Assembly (NCBI GenBank): GCA_030018495.1
Contig: JASEFS010000007.1
Coordinates: 62,001 to 126,000 of the forward strand
DNA length: 64,000 nt
From: Deltaproteobacteria bacterium
GTDB lineage: Bacteria; Desulfobacterota; Desulfobaccia; Desulfobaccales; 0-14-0-80-60-11
Reading direction: 5' to 3'
The notes beneath the pieces were generated by a model. The model saw only the letters and a program-made list of their open reading frames with translations, ran no database searches and had not been told where the DNA came from. Every line of letters begins with the position of its first letter. Positions within the stretch are counted from its first letter, which is position 1. Position numbers and translations under genes: made by a program. Positions 35,099-43,201 of the stretch are shown here, piece by piece.

Positions 35099-35135
35099 GA
35101 GGCCCCTCGAAAAATTTATTTAAAAAATTTTCCAT

Positions 35136-35152
35136 GTTCCGCAATTTGGAAC
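35136..35152. promoter_or_regulatory. Candidate WYL-regulator operator
   Basis: A perfect inverted repeat, GTTCC and GGAAC separated by 7 bases, in the 125-base gap between the divergent WYL gene and the ARPP-1-like gene. On the + strand it overlaps a TTGGAA that has an ACAAAT 17 bases downstream; on the - strand it overlaps TTGCGG, with AAATAA 17 bases downstream. Both promoter-like pairs are weak. A palindrome that covers both -35 regions would let one regulator control both genes. Binding is inferred. Confidence 0.45.
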
Positions 35153-35223
35153 GGTCTGATGTTAGCTTACAAATCCGGCAATGTAAACAAATAATCTCCA
35201 GCCATTCAGCCATAGGAGGCGCT

Positions 35224-36213
35224 ATGCAAAAGCCGGTCAAAGATTATTTCCAGGGCCTGGAGATAGGGCCAAGAGCAGACCATCAAAACATGAGCGTGTT
35301 TCCCTTCTTCTTTATGGCGGAGGCCGGTCTTCAATACCTCCCCCTTGATGCCGCCCTGGCCAGTGGGGTTATCGAGGTTGCCGAGGTGAGCGAGGGCGGC
35401 GACGTCCCTAATCTTAAAGTCACTAACAAAGGTGAGATTCCCATCCTGATCCTGGCGGGCGAAGAACTGGTGGGAGCCAAGCAAAACCGGATCGTCAACG
35501 CCACCTTCCTGATTGCCGGGAAGGCCCGTTTCAATATTCCGGTATCCTGCGTGGAGCAAGGCCGTTGGAGCTATCAGAGCAAACATTTCATGAGTGAAAG
35601 GCGGATGTCCTCGCCGCAGCTCCGTTCCAGGGTCGAGTTAGACCTGGCGTGCTCAATAAGGGAAGGTCGCGGCTTCCGGGCCAATCAATCGGGGGTTTGG
35701 GACGAGATCGGCACCAAGTCTGCCCGGATGTCGGTCCATTCTCCCACTGGCGCCATGTCCGACATCTATGAATCTTATGAGGACCAACTCAGGCAATATA
35801 CCGAAAGCTTCAGCTTATCCCCGAACCAGAAAGGTTTCCTGGTGGCCATTAATGGCCGGATGGCGGGCATGGAAGCCTTTGGCTCCCAAGATTCCCTGGC
35901 CAATTACTTTACCAAGTTGATCCAGAGCTATGCCTTGGATGCCATTGATTTGCACAGACAAGGACAATCCTCCAAACACCCGGAGGATGGAATTGAGGCC
36001 TGGGTTGAGGAGATAAGGGAGTTACCCGTAATATCCAGCCCTTCTCTGAGCCTAGGAGAGGACCTCAGGGTTGAAAGTGAGAAGGTCATTGGCTCCGGCC
36101 TCATGCATGAAGGCACGGTGCTCTATCTTTCGGTTTTTTCGAAGAACGGCTCTAAAAACAAATCCGGAATGGCTCGCGCCAGCAGGAGGGGTTCCTTTAA
36201 CCGGGACTTTTAG
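35224..36213 (+). CDS. ARPP-1-like protein
   Basis: A 329-residue protein starting at ATG 35224, with an AGGAGG ribosome-binding site at 35214-35219; the frame is open to 35134 but without a site. It begins with YFQGLEIGPRADHQNMSVFP and contains GEIPILILAGEELVGAKQNR, then the conserved VSCVEQGRWSY segment. These mark the ARPP-1 family (named for genomic association with ARG and rhodanese-phosphatase proteins in proposed ADP-ribose/NAD-related pathways). Biochemical function is unknown. It is transcribed away from the WYL regulator and may belong to the same cargo. Confidence 0.7.
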   Translation: MQKPVKDYFQGLEIGPRADHQNMSVFPFFFMAEAGLQYLPLDAALASGVIEVAEVSEGGDVPNLKVTNKGEIPILILAGEELVGAKQNRIVNATFLIAGKARFNIPVSCVEQGRWSYQSKHFMSERRMSSPQLRSRVELDLACSIREGRGFRANQSGVWDEIGTKSARMSVHSPTGAMSDIYESYEDQLRQYTESFSLSPNQKGFLVAINGRMAGMEAFGSQDSLANYFTKLIQSYALDAIDLHRQGQSSKHPEDGIEAWVEEIRELPVISSPSLSLGEDLRVESEKVIGSGLMHEGTVLYLSVFSKNGSKNKSGMARASRRGSFNRDF

Positions 36214-37601: not shown

Positions 37602-38270
37602 ATGATGATGGAGCATAACAATAAAATGTACGGTAGCCAGTATTGGTTGCGGATAGCGGTAAATGAGGCACGGGAAATTTTCAACCAAAAGGTCATAGAA
37701 GCCGTATCACTCGACGTTGGCGAGCAGATAGAATGGATTTCTCCTTTGGCGATGGCTTATACTGAATATCAGGACCAACAGTTTGTCGAAAAACTTCGCA
37801 TAAATCTAAAAATTCCCCTAAAGGACTTTTGGCCAAAAGGCGGCCCTGTGTGGGATGCCCTCGCGCGAACCTCCAATCCCGAAGGCAAAGTGTTCCTTAT
37901 TGAAGCAAAGGCACACATTCCAGAGATAAATTCGTCCGTATCAGGTGCCTCTCCAAGGTCTCTCCAGCGCATCGCTAAGAGCCTGAATGAGACAAAAGCT
38001 TTTCTCGACGCGAATCCCATCGTCGATTGGACTCGGACATTCTACCAGTACACGAACCGGATAGCCCATCTCTATTTCTTGCGCAAACTCAATAATATCT
38101 ACTTTATCAATGATACTCGGATGGGTGGACCTTCAACTATTGAAGAATGGAAAGGTGCCTTGGCTTTGCTCAAGACCCACTTAGGTATCACTCGCACCAA
38201 GCTGACGCCGTTCATGAAGGATCTCTTTATTGATGTTGACGATCTAAGGCAATTTTTGCGCAAGCTCTAA
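37602..38270 (+). CDS. PD-(D/E)XK nuclease-like protein
   Basis: A 222-residue protein of low GC content. The stretch GGPVWDALARTSNPEGKVFL IEAKAH near residues 78-105 has the form of a restriction-endonuclease-like core (Asp, then Glu-x-Lys 17 residues later, with a hydrophobic strand before it). The rest is helical (SPRSLQRIAKSLNETKAFLD). The start is one of three ATGs in a row with no clear ribosome-binding site. It lies 63 bases before a DNA glycosylase-like gene on the same strand, suggesting a two-gene DNA-targeting module. Nuclease function is inferred. Confidence 0.6.
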   Translation: MMMEHNNKMYGSQYWLRIAVNEAREIFNQKVIEAVSLDVGEQIEWISPLAMAYTEYQDQQFVEKLRINLKIPLKDFWPKGGPVWDALARTSNPEGKVFLIEAKAHIPEINSSVSGASPRSLQRIAKSLNETKAFLDANPIVDWTRTFYQYTNRIAHLYFLRKLNNIYFINDTRMGGPSTIEEWKGALALLKTHLGITRTKLTPFMKDLFIDVDDLRQFLRKL

Positions 38271-38333: not shown

Positions 38334-39050
38334 ATGGACAAGATGGCAGCCCGGAATCGACTCGCTGCGGTTATTCGCGAACTAGCCACAGAGAAGCGAG
38401 TTGAACTCGAACGACTTAAGAAGGAGTACAGCGGGCTTTCCCGCCCTGACTTTGTATGGCATTATCTCTTGCAAAGTTTCTCAACAATGGGGAGGGCCTC
38501 CGGTTGGCATGGGCTTATTGCTAACAAGAAAAACTACCAGCAGATAACCTACCATGCCCTCGCCACCCTGACTCCGGAAGGTCGCAGAACGCAAATCCGG
38601 GAAGTGTGTAGGGCAGCCAAGGTTCGTATGCCTGATAAGAAAGCGGATTACATCCTGCTCTGTTTTGATTATGTCAGGCAGCTTGGCGGCCCTGAAGCCG
38701 CAAAGGCTAAGCTGCTCGCCCAACCGGGGCGTGAGGCAAAGATCCGCTTCCTCCAAACTTTTCCTGGCATTGGGCCCAAGTATGCCAGAAACATCATGAT
38801 GGACGTCTATCATGAGGAATTTCGGAATAGCATAGCCCTGGATATTCGAATTAAGGCCATCTCAGAGGCGCTCGGTCTATCGTTTTCGTCTTATGCTGAA
38901 CACGAGTCATTCTACCTTAACGTAGCTCGCGATGCGGGGATCAATGGGTGGGAGCTGGACCGCTTACTATTCAATTTTCGTGATGAAGTCGAGGCGAGGC
39001 TTGGGGTCAAAGGAGAAATTGGCACCCGAAACAAGCAATGCTCACGATGA
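38334..39050 (+). CDS. HhH-GPD DNA glycosylase-like protein
   Basis: A 238-residue protein with a GGGAGG ribosome-binding site. Near residues 142-180 it has the helix-hairpin-helix FPGIGPKYARNIMMD followed by SIALDIRIKAI. Aligned to endonuclease III (LPGVGRKTA ... VDTH), the Lys of GPKYA takes the place of the catalytic Lys, and the Asp of LDIR that of the catalytic Asp, so both active-site residues are present. No 4Fe-4S cysteine loop is visible. It could remove modified or mismatched bases. It is the last complete gene before the attachment-site remnant. Confidence 0.72.
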   Translation: MDKMAARNRLAAVIRELATEKRVELERLKKEYSGLSRPDFVWHYLLQSFSTMGRASGWHGLIANKKNYQQITYHALATLTPEGRRTQIREVCRAAKVRMPDKKADYILLCFDYVRQLGGPEAAKAKLLAQPGREAKIRFLQTFPGIGPKYARNIMMDVYHEEFRNSIALDIRIKAISEALGLSFSSYAEHESFYLNVARDAGINGWELDRLLFNFRDEVEARLGVKGEIGTRNKQCSR

Positions 39051-39533: not shown

Positions 39534-39881
39534 GATTTTGAAGCCAAATTTGGGGTGGCATGCGGTTTTGCGTCAATTCCCATGTCATTTAGCGCTGCCT
39601 GAGCTTCTCTAAAGCGAACATTCACATGGTCGCCGCTTTCAGGGCTGCGCCCCACTCGATTCCCCCCTGGACCTCTTTGAGCTTCACGCCAGCCATTCCT
39701 AGCTTTTCCATAGGAAAACTTGCCTACGCTGCTTGAAACTTCCCATTGGAGTGCTTAGAAAATATCACATGAGTACTTGCAGGAGCTCCATGCTTGAAAT
39801 GTAGTTTCTGGCGGCTACCGCCTCTTGTGACTTTTTTGGCGCTGGCCGGAGGCGAGACCAAACTTTAGGAGAAATTTGATC
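39534..39881. other. Non-coding upstream region of the SQR operon
   Basis: About 350 bases without a supported gene. A TTGAAA at 39733-39738 with TAGAAA 17 bases downstream (39756-39761) is a possible promoter for the SQR operon, with weak -10. A minus-strand stretch at about 39600-39715 reads as a broken short frame starting with MEKLGMAGVKLKEVQGG, possibly a gene remnant of unknown kind. Confidence 0.4.
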
Positions 39882-41156
39882 ATGAAAAAGCTGGTTATTT
39901 TAGGTTCAGGTACCGGTGGCACCATCATGGCCACCAAGATGCGGCAGAAGCTGCCCGAATCCCAGTGGGAGATCACCATTATCGATCAGGACTGGCAGCA
40001 CCACTACCAGCCTGGATGGATCTTCATTCCGTTCGGCATTTACACCAAAGAGGACTGCGTCAAGCCCAAGGCCAAGTTTATCCCCCCGGGGGTCAACTTC
40101 GTTCTGGATGAAATCATCGAGGTCGACCCCCACCAGAAGCAGGTCAAGACCAAGCGGGACACTTACGCCTACGACTGGCTCATCATCGCCACCGGCTGCC
40201 GCATCATGCCCGCGGAAGTGGAAGGCATGATGGAAGGCTGGGGCAAGAACATTTTCAATTTCTACACCCTGGAAGGCGCCATGGCCCTGTATGAGCAGAT
40301 GAAGTACTTTAAAAAGGGCCGGGTAGTGGTGAACATCGCGGAGCTTCCGTTCAAATGCCCGGTGGCGCCCCTGGAATTCGCGTTTATGGCCGACTGGTTT
40401 TTCTCAAAAAACAGGGTGCGCGACGACATCGAAATAGAGCTGACCACGCCGCTGGGCGCAGCCTTTACCAAGCCGGTGGCCGCACAGGTGCTGGGCAACA
40501 TCTGCGCAGAGAAAAACGTCAAGGTCACCCCCAACTTTCAGATTTCCGAGGTGGACGCCGGCAAAAAAGTGATCAAGTCGTTCGGCGGCGAGGAGGTGCC
40601 CTATGACCTGTTGGTGTCCATACCCCCCAACTTCGGGGCCCAATGCCTCATTGACAGCGGCATGGGCGACCCCATGGGCTACATGGACACGGACCACAAC
40701 ACCCTGAGGGCCAAAAACTTCGATGCCATCTACGTCATCGGCGACGCCACCAATGTGCCCACCTCCAAGGCCGGGGCCGTGGCCCATTATGAAGCCGACA
40801 CAATTACCGAGAACCTCATCCGGGAAATCGACGGACAGCCGCCCCTGCCGTCTTATGACGGCCACGCCACCTGACTGGTGGTGACGGGTTACGAGAAGGG
40901 GTCCCTTCTCGATTTCAACTACAAAATTGAGCCGCTGCCCGGCAAATTCCCCTTTCCGGGCCTGGGTCCTTTCGACCTGTTGAAGGTGAGTTTCAGCAAT
41001 TATGTGGCCAAGATGATGTTCCGCTGGGTGTATTTTAATTTGATGCTCAAGGGCAGTCACCTGCCCCTGGAGTCTGAGTTCATCCTGGCCGGCAAGGAAC
41101 GGGGCATTCTGTCCCCTGACATTGAAATGCCCCTGCGCATGAGGAGGCGGAAATGA
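39882..41156 (+). CDS. sqr: Sulfide:quinone oxidoreductase, predicted selenoprotein (UGA at 40872)
   Basis: Starts at ATG 39882 behind AGGAG. The frame encodes an FAD-dependent SQR: dinucleotide fold KLVILGSGTGGTIMATKM, the PFKCPVAPLE motif with redox Cys159, DLLVSIPPNFGAQ, and IYVIGDATNVPTSKAGAVAH (second FAD motif). It then meets a single in-frame TGA at 40872-40874 (codon 331) and continues with no other stop for 93 codons: LVVTGYEKGSLLDFNYKIEP, LPGKFPFPG and FRWVYFNLM, the normal SQR C-terminus. The TGA takes the place of the C-terminal redox cysteine (the one in AVCFADMG of the Acidithiobacillus enzyme). With the SECIS-like hairpin behind it, selenocysteine is the best reading: 424 residues, normal SQR length. 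The alternative is a nonsense mutation. SQR oxidises sulfide and passes electrons to quinone at the membrane. Confidence 0.8.
40892..40911 (+). promoter_or_regulatory. Candidate bacterial SECIS element
   Basis: CGAGAAGG (40892-40899) and CCTTCTCG (40904-40911) form a perfect 8-pair stem with the loop GGTC. The loop lies 25 bases after the in-frame TGA, within the range accepted for bacterial SECIS elements. The same GGUC occurs in the apical loop of the E. coli fdhF SECIS, where G and U contact SelB. The bulged U of fdhF is not evident here. Confidence 0.65.
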
Positions 41157-41869
41157 GCCCGGAAGAACAACTTCTGGAACGGCTGGCCCGAATCGAAGCA
41201 AAGCTGGATGGGCTGGACCGCCTGGAGAAGCAGATGCAAGTCTTCGCCGGTACTTGGGAGAACTTCCATGATCTCAGCCGGGACGTCTCCCTGCTCATGG
41301 AACCTGCGGTCCAGCACCTAACCGATGAACTGGTGGAAGTGGAAACGGGCTTCCAACTGGAGGATGTCCTCACTCTGTTGAGAAACCTCCTGCCCCGTCT
41401 GCGCTATATCTCTTACAGCCTGGAGCAGTTGGAGAACCTCATCGACTGGTGGCACGATATGGAGCCGGTACTGAAGATCGCGGTGCCGCATTTCATCGAC
41501 TACCTGGACAGTTTAGAGCAGAAGGGCATTTTTCGCATCAACCGGGCCATGATCGACATGTACGCCAAGATAGCCGAGCACTACACCCCGGAGGACATCG
41601 CCGCCATCGGCGACGGCTTTGTGCGCATGCACGGCATCATCAAGAAGTTTTCCGAGCCGGAATTCATCCGGTTCGTCGAAAAATTCATGGACATCCCCAC
41701 CCAGATGAAACTGGAAGAGGCTAAACCCACCGGACCCATGGGCCTCATGTTCCGCCTGATGGATGCCGAATGCCGCCAGGGTCTTGGCGTGGCCCTGGAA
41801 ATGACCAAGGCACTGGGGAAGCTGAAAAACGGGGATGGGCAACCGAGCGGTACTGAAAAGGAAAAATAG
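41153..41869 (+). CDS. DUF1641 protein, SQR partner
   Basis: A 238-residue, mostly helical protein whose ATG overlaps the SQR stop by 4 bases. It starts with a coiled-coil segment (LERLARIEAKLDGLDRLEKQ) and contains the DUF1641 core: LLRNLLPRLRYISYSLEQLE and PMGLMFRLMDAECRQGLGVA. DUF1641 proteins are regularly found beside SQR or formate/sulfur oxidoreductase genes; their role is not established but they may help dock the enzyme to partners or the membrane. The overlap shows that translation reaches the real SQR stop at 41156, which itself argues for readthrough of the internal TGA. Confidence 0.85.
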   Translation: MSPEEQLLERLARIEAKLDGLDRLEKQMQVFAGTWENFHDLSRDVSLLMEPAVQHLTDELVEVETGFQLEDVLTLLRNLLPRLRYISYSLEQLENLIDWWHDMEPVLKIAVPHFIDYLDSLEQKGIFRINRAMIDMYAKIAEHYTPEDIAAIGDGFVRMHGIIKKFSEPEFIRFVEKFMDIPTQMKLEEAKPTGPMGLMFRLMDAECRQGLGVALEMTKALGKLKNGDGQPSGTEKEK

Positions 41870-42254: not shown

Positions 42255-42689
42255 ATGAAAAGGGCCTGCTTGAATTTTGCCGTCGGACTTTTCCTCCTGG
42301 TGTTCGCCGCCTCCTCGGCCTGGGCCCAGCGCGGCGGGCGTATTCATTACAGCAACTTGTTCGACCCCCAAACCATGGACACCGTATCCGGCGAAGTGGT
42401 GCGGGTGGATTATGTCCTTGCAGGGAACGGCAGGCATTACTGCACCCAGGCCTTGCTTAAGACGCCGCGAGGAAATATCACCGCGGTTTTAGGGCCTAAG
42501 AGCTTTATGGAAGAGCAGGGCCTCACCATAGCCGCCAAAGACCGGGTGACGGTCACCGGCTCCCGGATTGTCATAATGAACCGGCCATTTATCCTGGTCA
42601 CCGAAATGACCGGCGATCGCACCATGAAACTCAGGGAAGCCGGCGGCCGTCCGGTATGGGCCGACGGCGACGACTGGCATGCACGCTAG
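42255..42689 (+). CDS. Secreted small OB-fold-like protein, copy 1
   Basis: A 144-residue protein with a classic signal peptide (KRACLNFAVGLFLLVFAASS AWA, cleavage likely after AWA). The mature part has repeated short beta strands (MDTVSGEVVRVDYVL, DRVTVTGSRIVIMNRPFILV) resembling the periplasmic OB-fold (YgiW/BOF-like) family. It shares the plan and many blocks with the next protein: LFDPQTMDTVSGEV versus LYNPATVETLGGEV, and EEQGLTIAAKDRVTVTGSRI versus EQQGMAFAAGDKLQVTGSRI. Function unknown; it probably acts in the periplasm. Confidence 0.75.
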   Translation: MKRACLNFAVGLFLLVFAASSAWAQRGGRIHYSNLFDPQTMDTVSGEVVRVDYVLAGNGRHYCTQALLKTPRGNITAVLGPKSFMEEQGLTIAAKDRVTVTGSRIVIMNRPFILVTEMTGDRTMKLREAGGRPVWADGDDWHAR

Positions 42690-42733
42690 GGCGTCAGAGC
42701 GCCAGAAATAAAAGCCGAGTAGGAGAGATTGCC

Positions 42734-43201
42734 ATGAAAAGAGCAATTGGGCTGGTGAGCGTTTGGGTCATCATGGGGTTGTTCCTAGTCACCTCGGCCA
42801 CGGCCCAGCCAGGCAGGGGCCGGAGTTGGGGCGGCTGGGGGCCGGGAGGGTCTTACGGCCGCTTGTACAACCCGGCCACAGTTGAAACCCTGGGCGGGGA
42901 GGTGATCAAGGTAGACCGCTATATGCCGGGCCGCGGCATGGGCTACGGGGTACACCTCAGCTTAAAGACCGCCGCTGAAACCATTGACGTGCACCTGGGG
43001 CCATCCTGGTATGTGGAGCAGCAAGGCATGGCTTTTGCCGCGGGAGACAAGCTGCAGGTCACCGGCTCCCGCATCACCTATCAGGGAAAGCCCGCCATCA
43101 TCGCGGCGGAAGTGAAAAAAGGTGATCAGGTTTTGAAACTCAGAGATGCCCAGGGCATCCCGGTCTGGTCCGGAGCCGGGGCTGGCCGACGGCGGCGTTA
43201 G
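42734..43201 (+). CDS. Secreted small OB-fold-like protein, copy 2
   Basis: A 155-residue paralogue of the preceding protein, 44 bases downstream. The start is ATG 42734, behind TAGGAGAG; the frame is open upstream over the end of the first copy but that start lacks a site. It has a signal peptide (GLVSVWVIMGLFLVTSATA) and a Gly/Trp-rich stretch after it (GRGRSWGGWGPGGSYGR) that the first copy lacks, then the shared beta domain with VKKGDQVLKLRDAQGIPVWS. A basic tail ends the protein. Tandem duplication with divergence. Confidence 0.75.
   Translation: MKRAIGLVSVWVIMGLFLVTSATAQPGRGRSWGGWGPGGSYGRLYNPATVETLGGEVIKVDRYMPGRGMGYGVHLSLKTAAETIDVHLGPSWYVEQQGMAFAAGDKLQVTGSRITYQGKPAIIAAEVKKGDQVLKLRDAQGIPVWSGAGAGRRRR

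Follow-up and report, generated by a model that had tools for sequence, protein, structure and literature searches.

The chemistry of sulfide:quinone oxidoreductase (SQR) depends on a cysteine trisulfide or disulfide. In the human enzyme, SQOR, the trisulfide is held by the pair Cys201 and Cys379 (PMC12589024). A form of SQR with selenocysteine (Sec) is already catalogued: the NCBIfam profile NF049943, SQR_III_seleno, bears the name 'type III sulfide quinone reductase, selenoprotein subtype', and a table in a 2026 review lists a type III SQR with the motif HxxU and the example MGW8192990.1 (PMC13188914). A family predicted by deep-Sep in Desulfosediminicola in 2025 was described as an NAD(P)/FAD-dependent oxidoreductase, and homologues with TGA were noted outside that genus (PMC12013277); the review, which comes from the deep-Sep group, equates that family with NF049943 (PMC13188914). 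In the light of these three sources the statement of the initial annotation that no Sec-type SQR had been described does not hold, and the gene presented here is a well-supported addition to an already catalogued Sec-SQR family. No enzyme assay or expression data on this family were found in the literature searched. The term 'type III' (SqrC of the six-type scheme) is NCBI naming only, and the closest solved enzyme is the human type II SQOR.

The window, i.e., the whole analysed stretch of 64,000 nucleotides, belongs to a genome in 63 contigs, which is probably a metagenome-assembled genome (MAG). The features of the SQR locus are as follows (the basis of each is given in brackets).

39867..39872, + strand: Shine-Dalgarno-like AGGAGA 5' of the ATG (sequence)
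39882..41156, + strand: sqr read through UGA, type III-labelled sulfide:quinone oxidoreductase, predicted selenoprotein subtype, 424 aa (NF049943 profile, human SQOR match)
40356..40358, + strand: TGC codon of Cys159, the first redox Cys, equivalent of human Cys201 (invariance, alignment to human VKCAGAP)
40872..40874, + strand: in-frame TGA, predicted Sec331, equivalent of human Cys379 (Sec/Cys column, alignment to human TSCPLVTGY)
40892..40911, + strand: bacterial SECIS-like hairpin of 8 bp with the GGUC loop at 40900-40903 (fold, strict stem counts, nucleotide invariance)
41153..41869, + strand: DUF1641 gene, putative SQR partner, overlapping the far stop as ATGA (PF07849)

Under translation table 11 the locus yields two ORFs, 39876-40874 and 40878-41156. 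When 39882-41156 is read as one frame, the only internal stop is TGA 40872-40874 at codon 331, as had been claimed; the interval 40872-40911, which the initial annotation had marked, runs from this TGA to the end of the hairpin. The product scores 665.6 bits against the NF049943 profile (cut-off 525), and its sequence together with the match of its predicted structure displays the features of an SQR, i.e., the tDBDF fold, the FAD motif GSGTGG, Cys159 and the residue 331 position. The predicted structure (mean pLDDT 83.7) is matched best by human SQOR (PDB 6oi5, 6oi6, 8dhk; TM 0.83-0.87), and the matches that follow include the SQRs of Acidithiobacillus and Aquifex; human SQOR is also the best solved relative by sequence (E 3e-53). 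Both phmmer and profile alignments pair UGA 331 with the Cys in human TSCPLVTGY, and Cys159 with that in human PVKCAGAP; we take these two to be Cys379 and Cys201, respectively. The TGA thus stands at the C-terminal redox Cys, as proposed, and the other redox Cys, in the motif FKCPV, is indeed kept: it is invariant in alignment A1 and retained by every relative that covers the position. The position of the UGA was fixed via human SQOR and not residue by residue via the Acidithiobacillus enzyme named in the initial annotation; the profile match to the latter reaches chain residue 361-364, and a structural match to it was also obtained.

In all, 17 distinct full-length genes have TGA at exactly the column of codon 331, and all other homologues fetched have TGC or TGT there, so that the Cys/UGA comparison proposed in the initial annotation finds TGA confined to one clade of the fetched loci and Cys codons in all the others. 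The TGA genes come from the taxonomic family of the window or from MAGs titled Syntrophobacterales, Syntrophales, Desulfobaccales, Deltaproteobacteria or uncultured bacterium; a class-level search around genome G361 for relatives of Desulfosediminicola returned no TGA SQR. None of these genes has a second stop ahead of its natural end, and the random other stops in the second half that would have spoken against Sec were not seen in relatives; the TAG or TGA of two distant matches (G159, G108) is the natural C-terminal end and not the Sec column. Two genomes (G007, G016) carry two Sec copies and one Cys copy each. Nonsynonymous change amounts to 0.112 downstream of the UGA versus 0.198 upstream, at similar synonymous change, and hence the downstream part appears to be translated protein; by these sequence comparisons purifying selection is stronger after the TGA than before it. 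If the TGA were a real stop, the gene would give a truncated 330-aa enzyme and an independent 92-aa ORF from GTG 40878, or it would be a decaying pseudogene. Such an arrangement is what the two table 11 ORFs describe, and the Cys-type paralogue of the same genome (see below) could supply the SQR function. However, the TGA is common to 18 distinct sequences in which the frame is kept, selection on the part past it exceeds that on the part before it, the TGA copy stands alone among matches at E<=1e-100 in five nearly complete genomes (G004, G011, G015, G003, G005), and GTG 40878 is without a plausible Shine-Dalgarno sequence, which together make a real stop highly improbable. The pseudogene was rejected on the kept frame, the lack of any other stop and the purifying selection downstream. 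An assembly error as the source of the TGA was also considered and rejected.

The hairpin that follows the TGA is built of the arms CGAGAAGG (40892-40899) and CCTTCTCG (40904-40911), which enclose GGTC (40900-40903). The 8-pair stem and the GGUC loop were described correctly in the initial annotation, but the stem had been placed 25 bases after the TGA, which is the distance of the apical loop; the stem itself starts 17 nt from the UGA. The fold of 40872-40917 reaches -18.7 kcal/mol (z -2.69). The published bacterial SECIS model requires a stem of 4-16 bp, a loop of 3-9 nt with G in the first two positions, a distance of 16-37 nt from the UGA and a minimum free energy of <= -7.5 (PMC13188914). 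With 8 bp, GGUC, 25 nt and a stable fold the hairpin agrees with this model; a scan of Rfam, which is uninformative for bacterial SECIS, gave no match to a SECIS family. A strict 8-bp stem at the bacterial SECIS distance was found in 17/17 full-length Sec genes versus 0/83 Cys genes. Within the window, 36 TGAs are flanked in both directions by a long open frame, and such a stem follows the SQR TGA only, the next best having 6 bp. The identical 20-nt hairpin, CGAGAAGG-GGTC-CCTTCTCG, is present in all 18 distinct TGA sequences, i.e., the window gene and 17 others (16 full-length and one fragment), and its seven codons, 337-343, are the sole run of at least three invariant codons in the gene; four-fold sites outside the hairpin codons differ by 0.34-0.39.

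The machinery for Sec insertion, which the initial annotation had advised to look for, is complete: selA, selB, selC (tRNA-Sec, anticodon UCA) and selD are all encoded in the same genome, on contigs other than that of the SQR, so the absence of SelB or tRNA-Sec genes, which would have counted against Sec, is not observed. The selD gene (L020; G000:C55:29319-30230) has an in-frame TGA of its own, with Sec at the catalytic position (RAAGUASK), and selA is present in 21/22 genomes of the family. The UGA might instead be read as another residue, through Trp insertion, some other code change or near-cognate read-through, and indeed any code that assigns a residue to UGA leaves the frame open. Against this, the homologues carry Cys alone in the column and never Trp, the strict SECIS-like hairpin is restricted to UGA genes, the genome encodes both the Sec machinery and a Sec-containing SelD, and sqr itself terminates in a TGA that is directly overlapped by the next gene; a reassigned code was rejected on these grounds, and insertion of any residue other than Sec is scarcely plausible. 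That the hairpin arose merely by chance from codon bias and the peptide YEKGSLLDF has a negligible chance of being right: although close Cys homologues retain these amino acids and one Cys-type relative, L067, has a near-identical hairpin, synonymous reshuffling of the same peptide gave such a stem in just 289/200,000 trials, the codons are identical in all TGA genes while neighbouring codons vary, the strict stem is missing from the Cys genes counted above, and L067 groups inside or next to the Sec clade, consistent with a relic.

The gene thus almost certainly encodes a selenocysteine-containing SQR, as the initial annotation had read it. The Sec/Cys column, the SECIS-like stem, the selection past the UGA and the sel genes are four independent lines that agree and strongly support Sec at UGA 331, all of them drawn from sequence. 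The host, a sulfate-reducer-like bacterium, very probably reads a stop codon as Sec at one of the two catalytic Cys positions of its SQR. In the proposed mechanism SelB with Sec-tRNA would bind the hairpin, and Sec would be inserted at UGA 331. Judging by homology, the enzyme would oxidize sulfide and reduce quinone. As in SQR enzymology, sulfide is expected to attack the Cys/Sec bridge; Cys159, adjoining the flavin, would hand electrons to FAD and then quinone, and Sec331 would fill the role of human Cys379, holding the sulfane sulfur until an acceptor removes it. In the sulfur hand-off the selenium could improve residue 331 both as nucleophile and as leaving group, or it could protect the residue from over-oxidation. 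The initial annotation had proposed that Sec would speed up a selenide/persulfide step.

The DUF1641 gene overlaps the far stop of sqr (ATGA at 41153) and not the TGA, just as had been reported. A DUF1641 gene lies directly downstream in 17/17 Sec loci and 79/83 Cys loci; since it adjoins SQR genes of both kinds, it belongs to the SQR unit whether or not Sec is present. Its product may be translationally coupled to SQR, and the synteny suggests that it is probably a membrane or complex partner of the enzyme. As to the wider neighbourhood, an ARPP-1 domain protein (PF20208) is encoded upstream of SQR at 35134-36213 of the window, and two ORFs between the two genes, 37602-38270 and 38334-39050, have no Pfam or NCBIfam match. 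Downstream of the DUF1641 gene, two adjacent ORFs in 42255-43201 share a mutually similar pattern (TVSGEVVRVD and TLGGEVIKVD) with no Pfam match.

The genome has a second SQR (L002; G000:C56:452-1675), which is Cys-type. In this paralogue the open frame that holds the DUF1641 gene begins about 300 bp downstream, with no overlap. In Desulforhabdus sp. TSK the SQR of L067 (3001-4290) has, just past its Cys codon, the near-identical hairpin with one G-U pair, which is probably a relic of Sec, judging from its sequence and its position within or beside the Sec clade. In the rooted tree the Cys group that includes this species is nested within the Sec genes, which suggests a reversion from Sec to Cys in the Desulforhabdus-containing group; the reversion is probable and not decisive, because monophyly of the Sec genes is not rejected by the AU test (p 0.23). 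A broader scenario can be offered tentatively, though it is unlikely to be right in full. The resting enzyme would hold a mixed Se-S bridge, Cys159-S-S-Sec331, the selenium counterpart of the human Cys201-S-S-S-Cys379 trisulfide, that tunes sulfur transfer for a sulfate reducer at high sulfide; the Cys version would be kept in the genome for other conditions, and Sec would have been lost again in the sister lineage that bears the SECIS relic.

To the catalogued family the present analysis adds the conservation of the SECIS-like hairpin, the co-occurrence of Sec and Cys paralogues within a single genome, the probable (not decisive) Sec-to-Cys reversion, and the finding that Sec and Cys members are not told apart by the NF049943 cut-off. 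Many Cys genes exceed this cut-off, and the Cys paralogue itself scores 671.7 bits; the NF049943 name alone is therefore no proof of Sec, and annotation by this profile alone could mislabel Cys enzymes. The family displays the gain and probably also the loss of Sec, with a trace of the SECIS, and a genome that naturally has both a Sec variant and a Cys paralogue provides a ready experiment on what selenium contributes to sulfide oxidation. The gene described here resembles NF049943 in profile membership and in the position of the Sec motif (HATU here, GHAT followed by UGA), but the model accepts Cys forms as well. With the deep-Sep family it shares Sec/Cys pairs and a bacterial SECIS, although that family was reported from another genus and without the SQR name in the 2025 paper. 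Its own paralogue is 67% identical, keeps C159 and is followed by a DUF1641 gene, but it has a TGT Cys codon at the Sec column, is without a SECIS-like stem and belongs to a separate clade. Human mitochondrial SQOR, at 29% identity, has the same fold and both redox Cys columns, and differs in carrying Cys379 where the bacterial enzyme is predicted to have Sec331.
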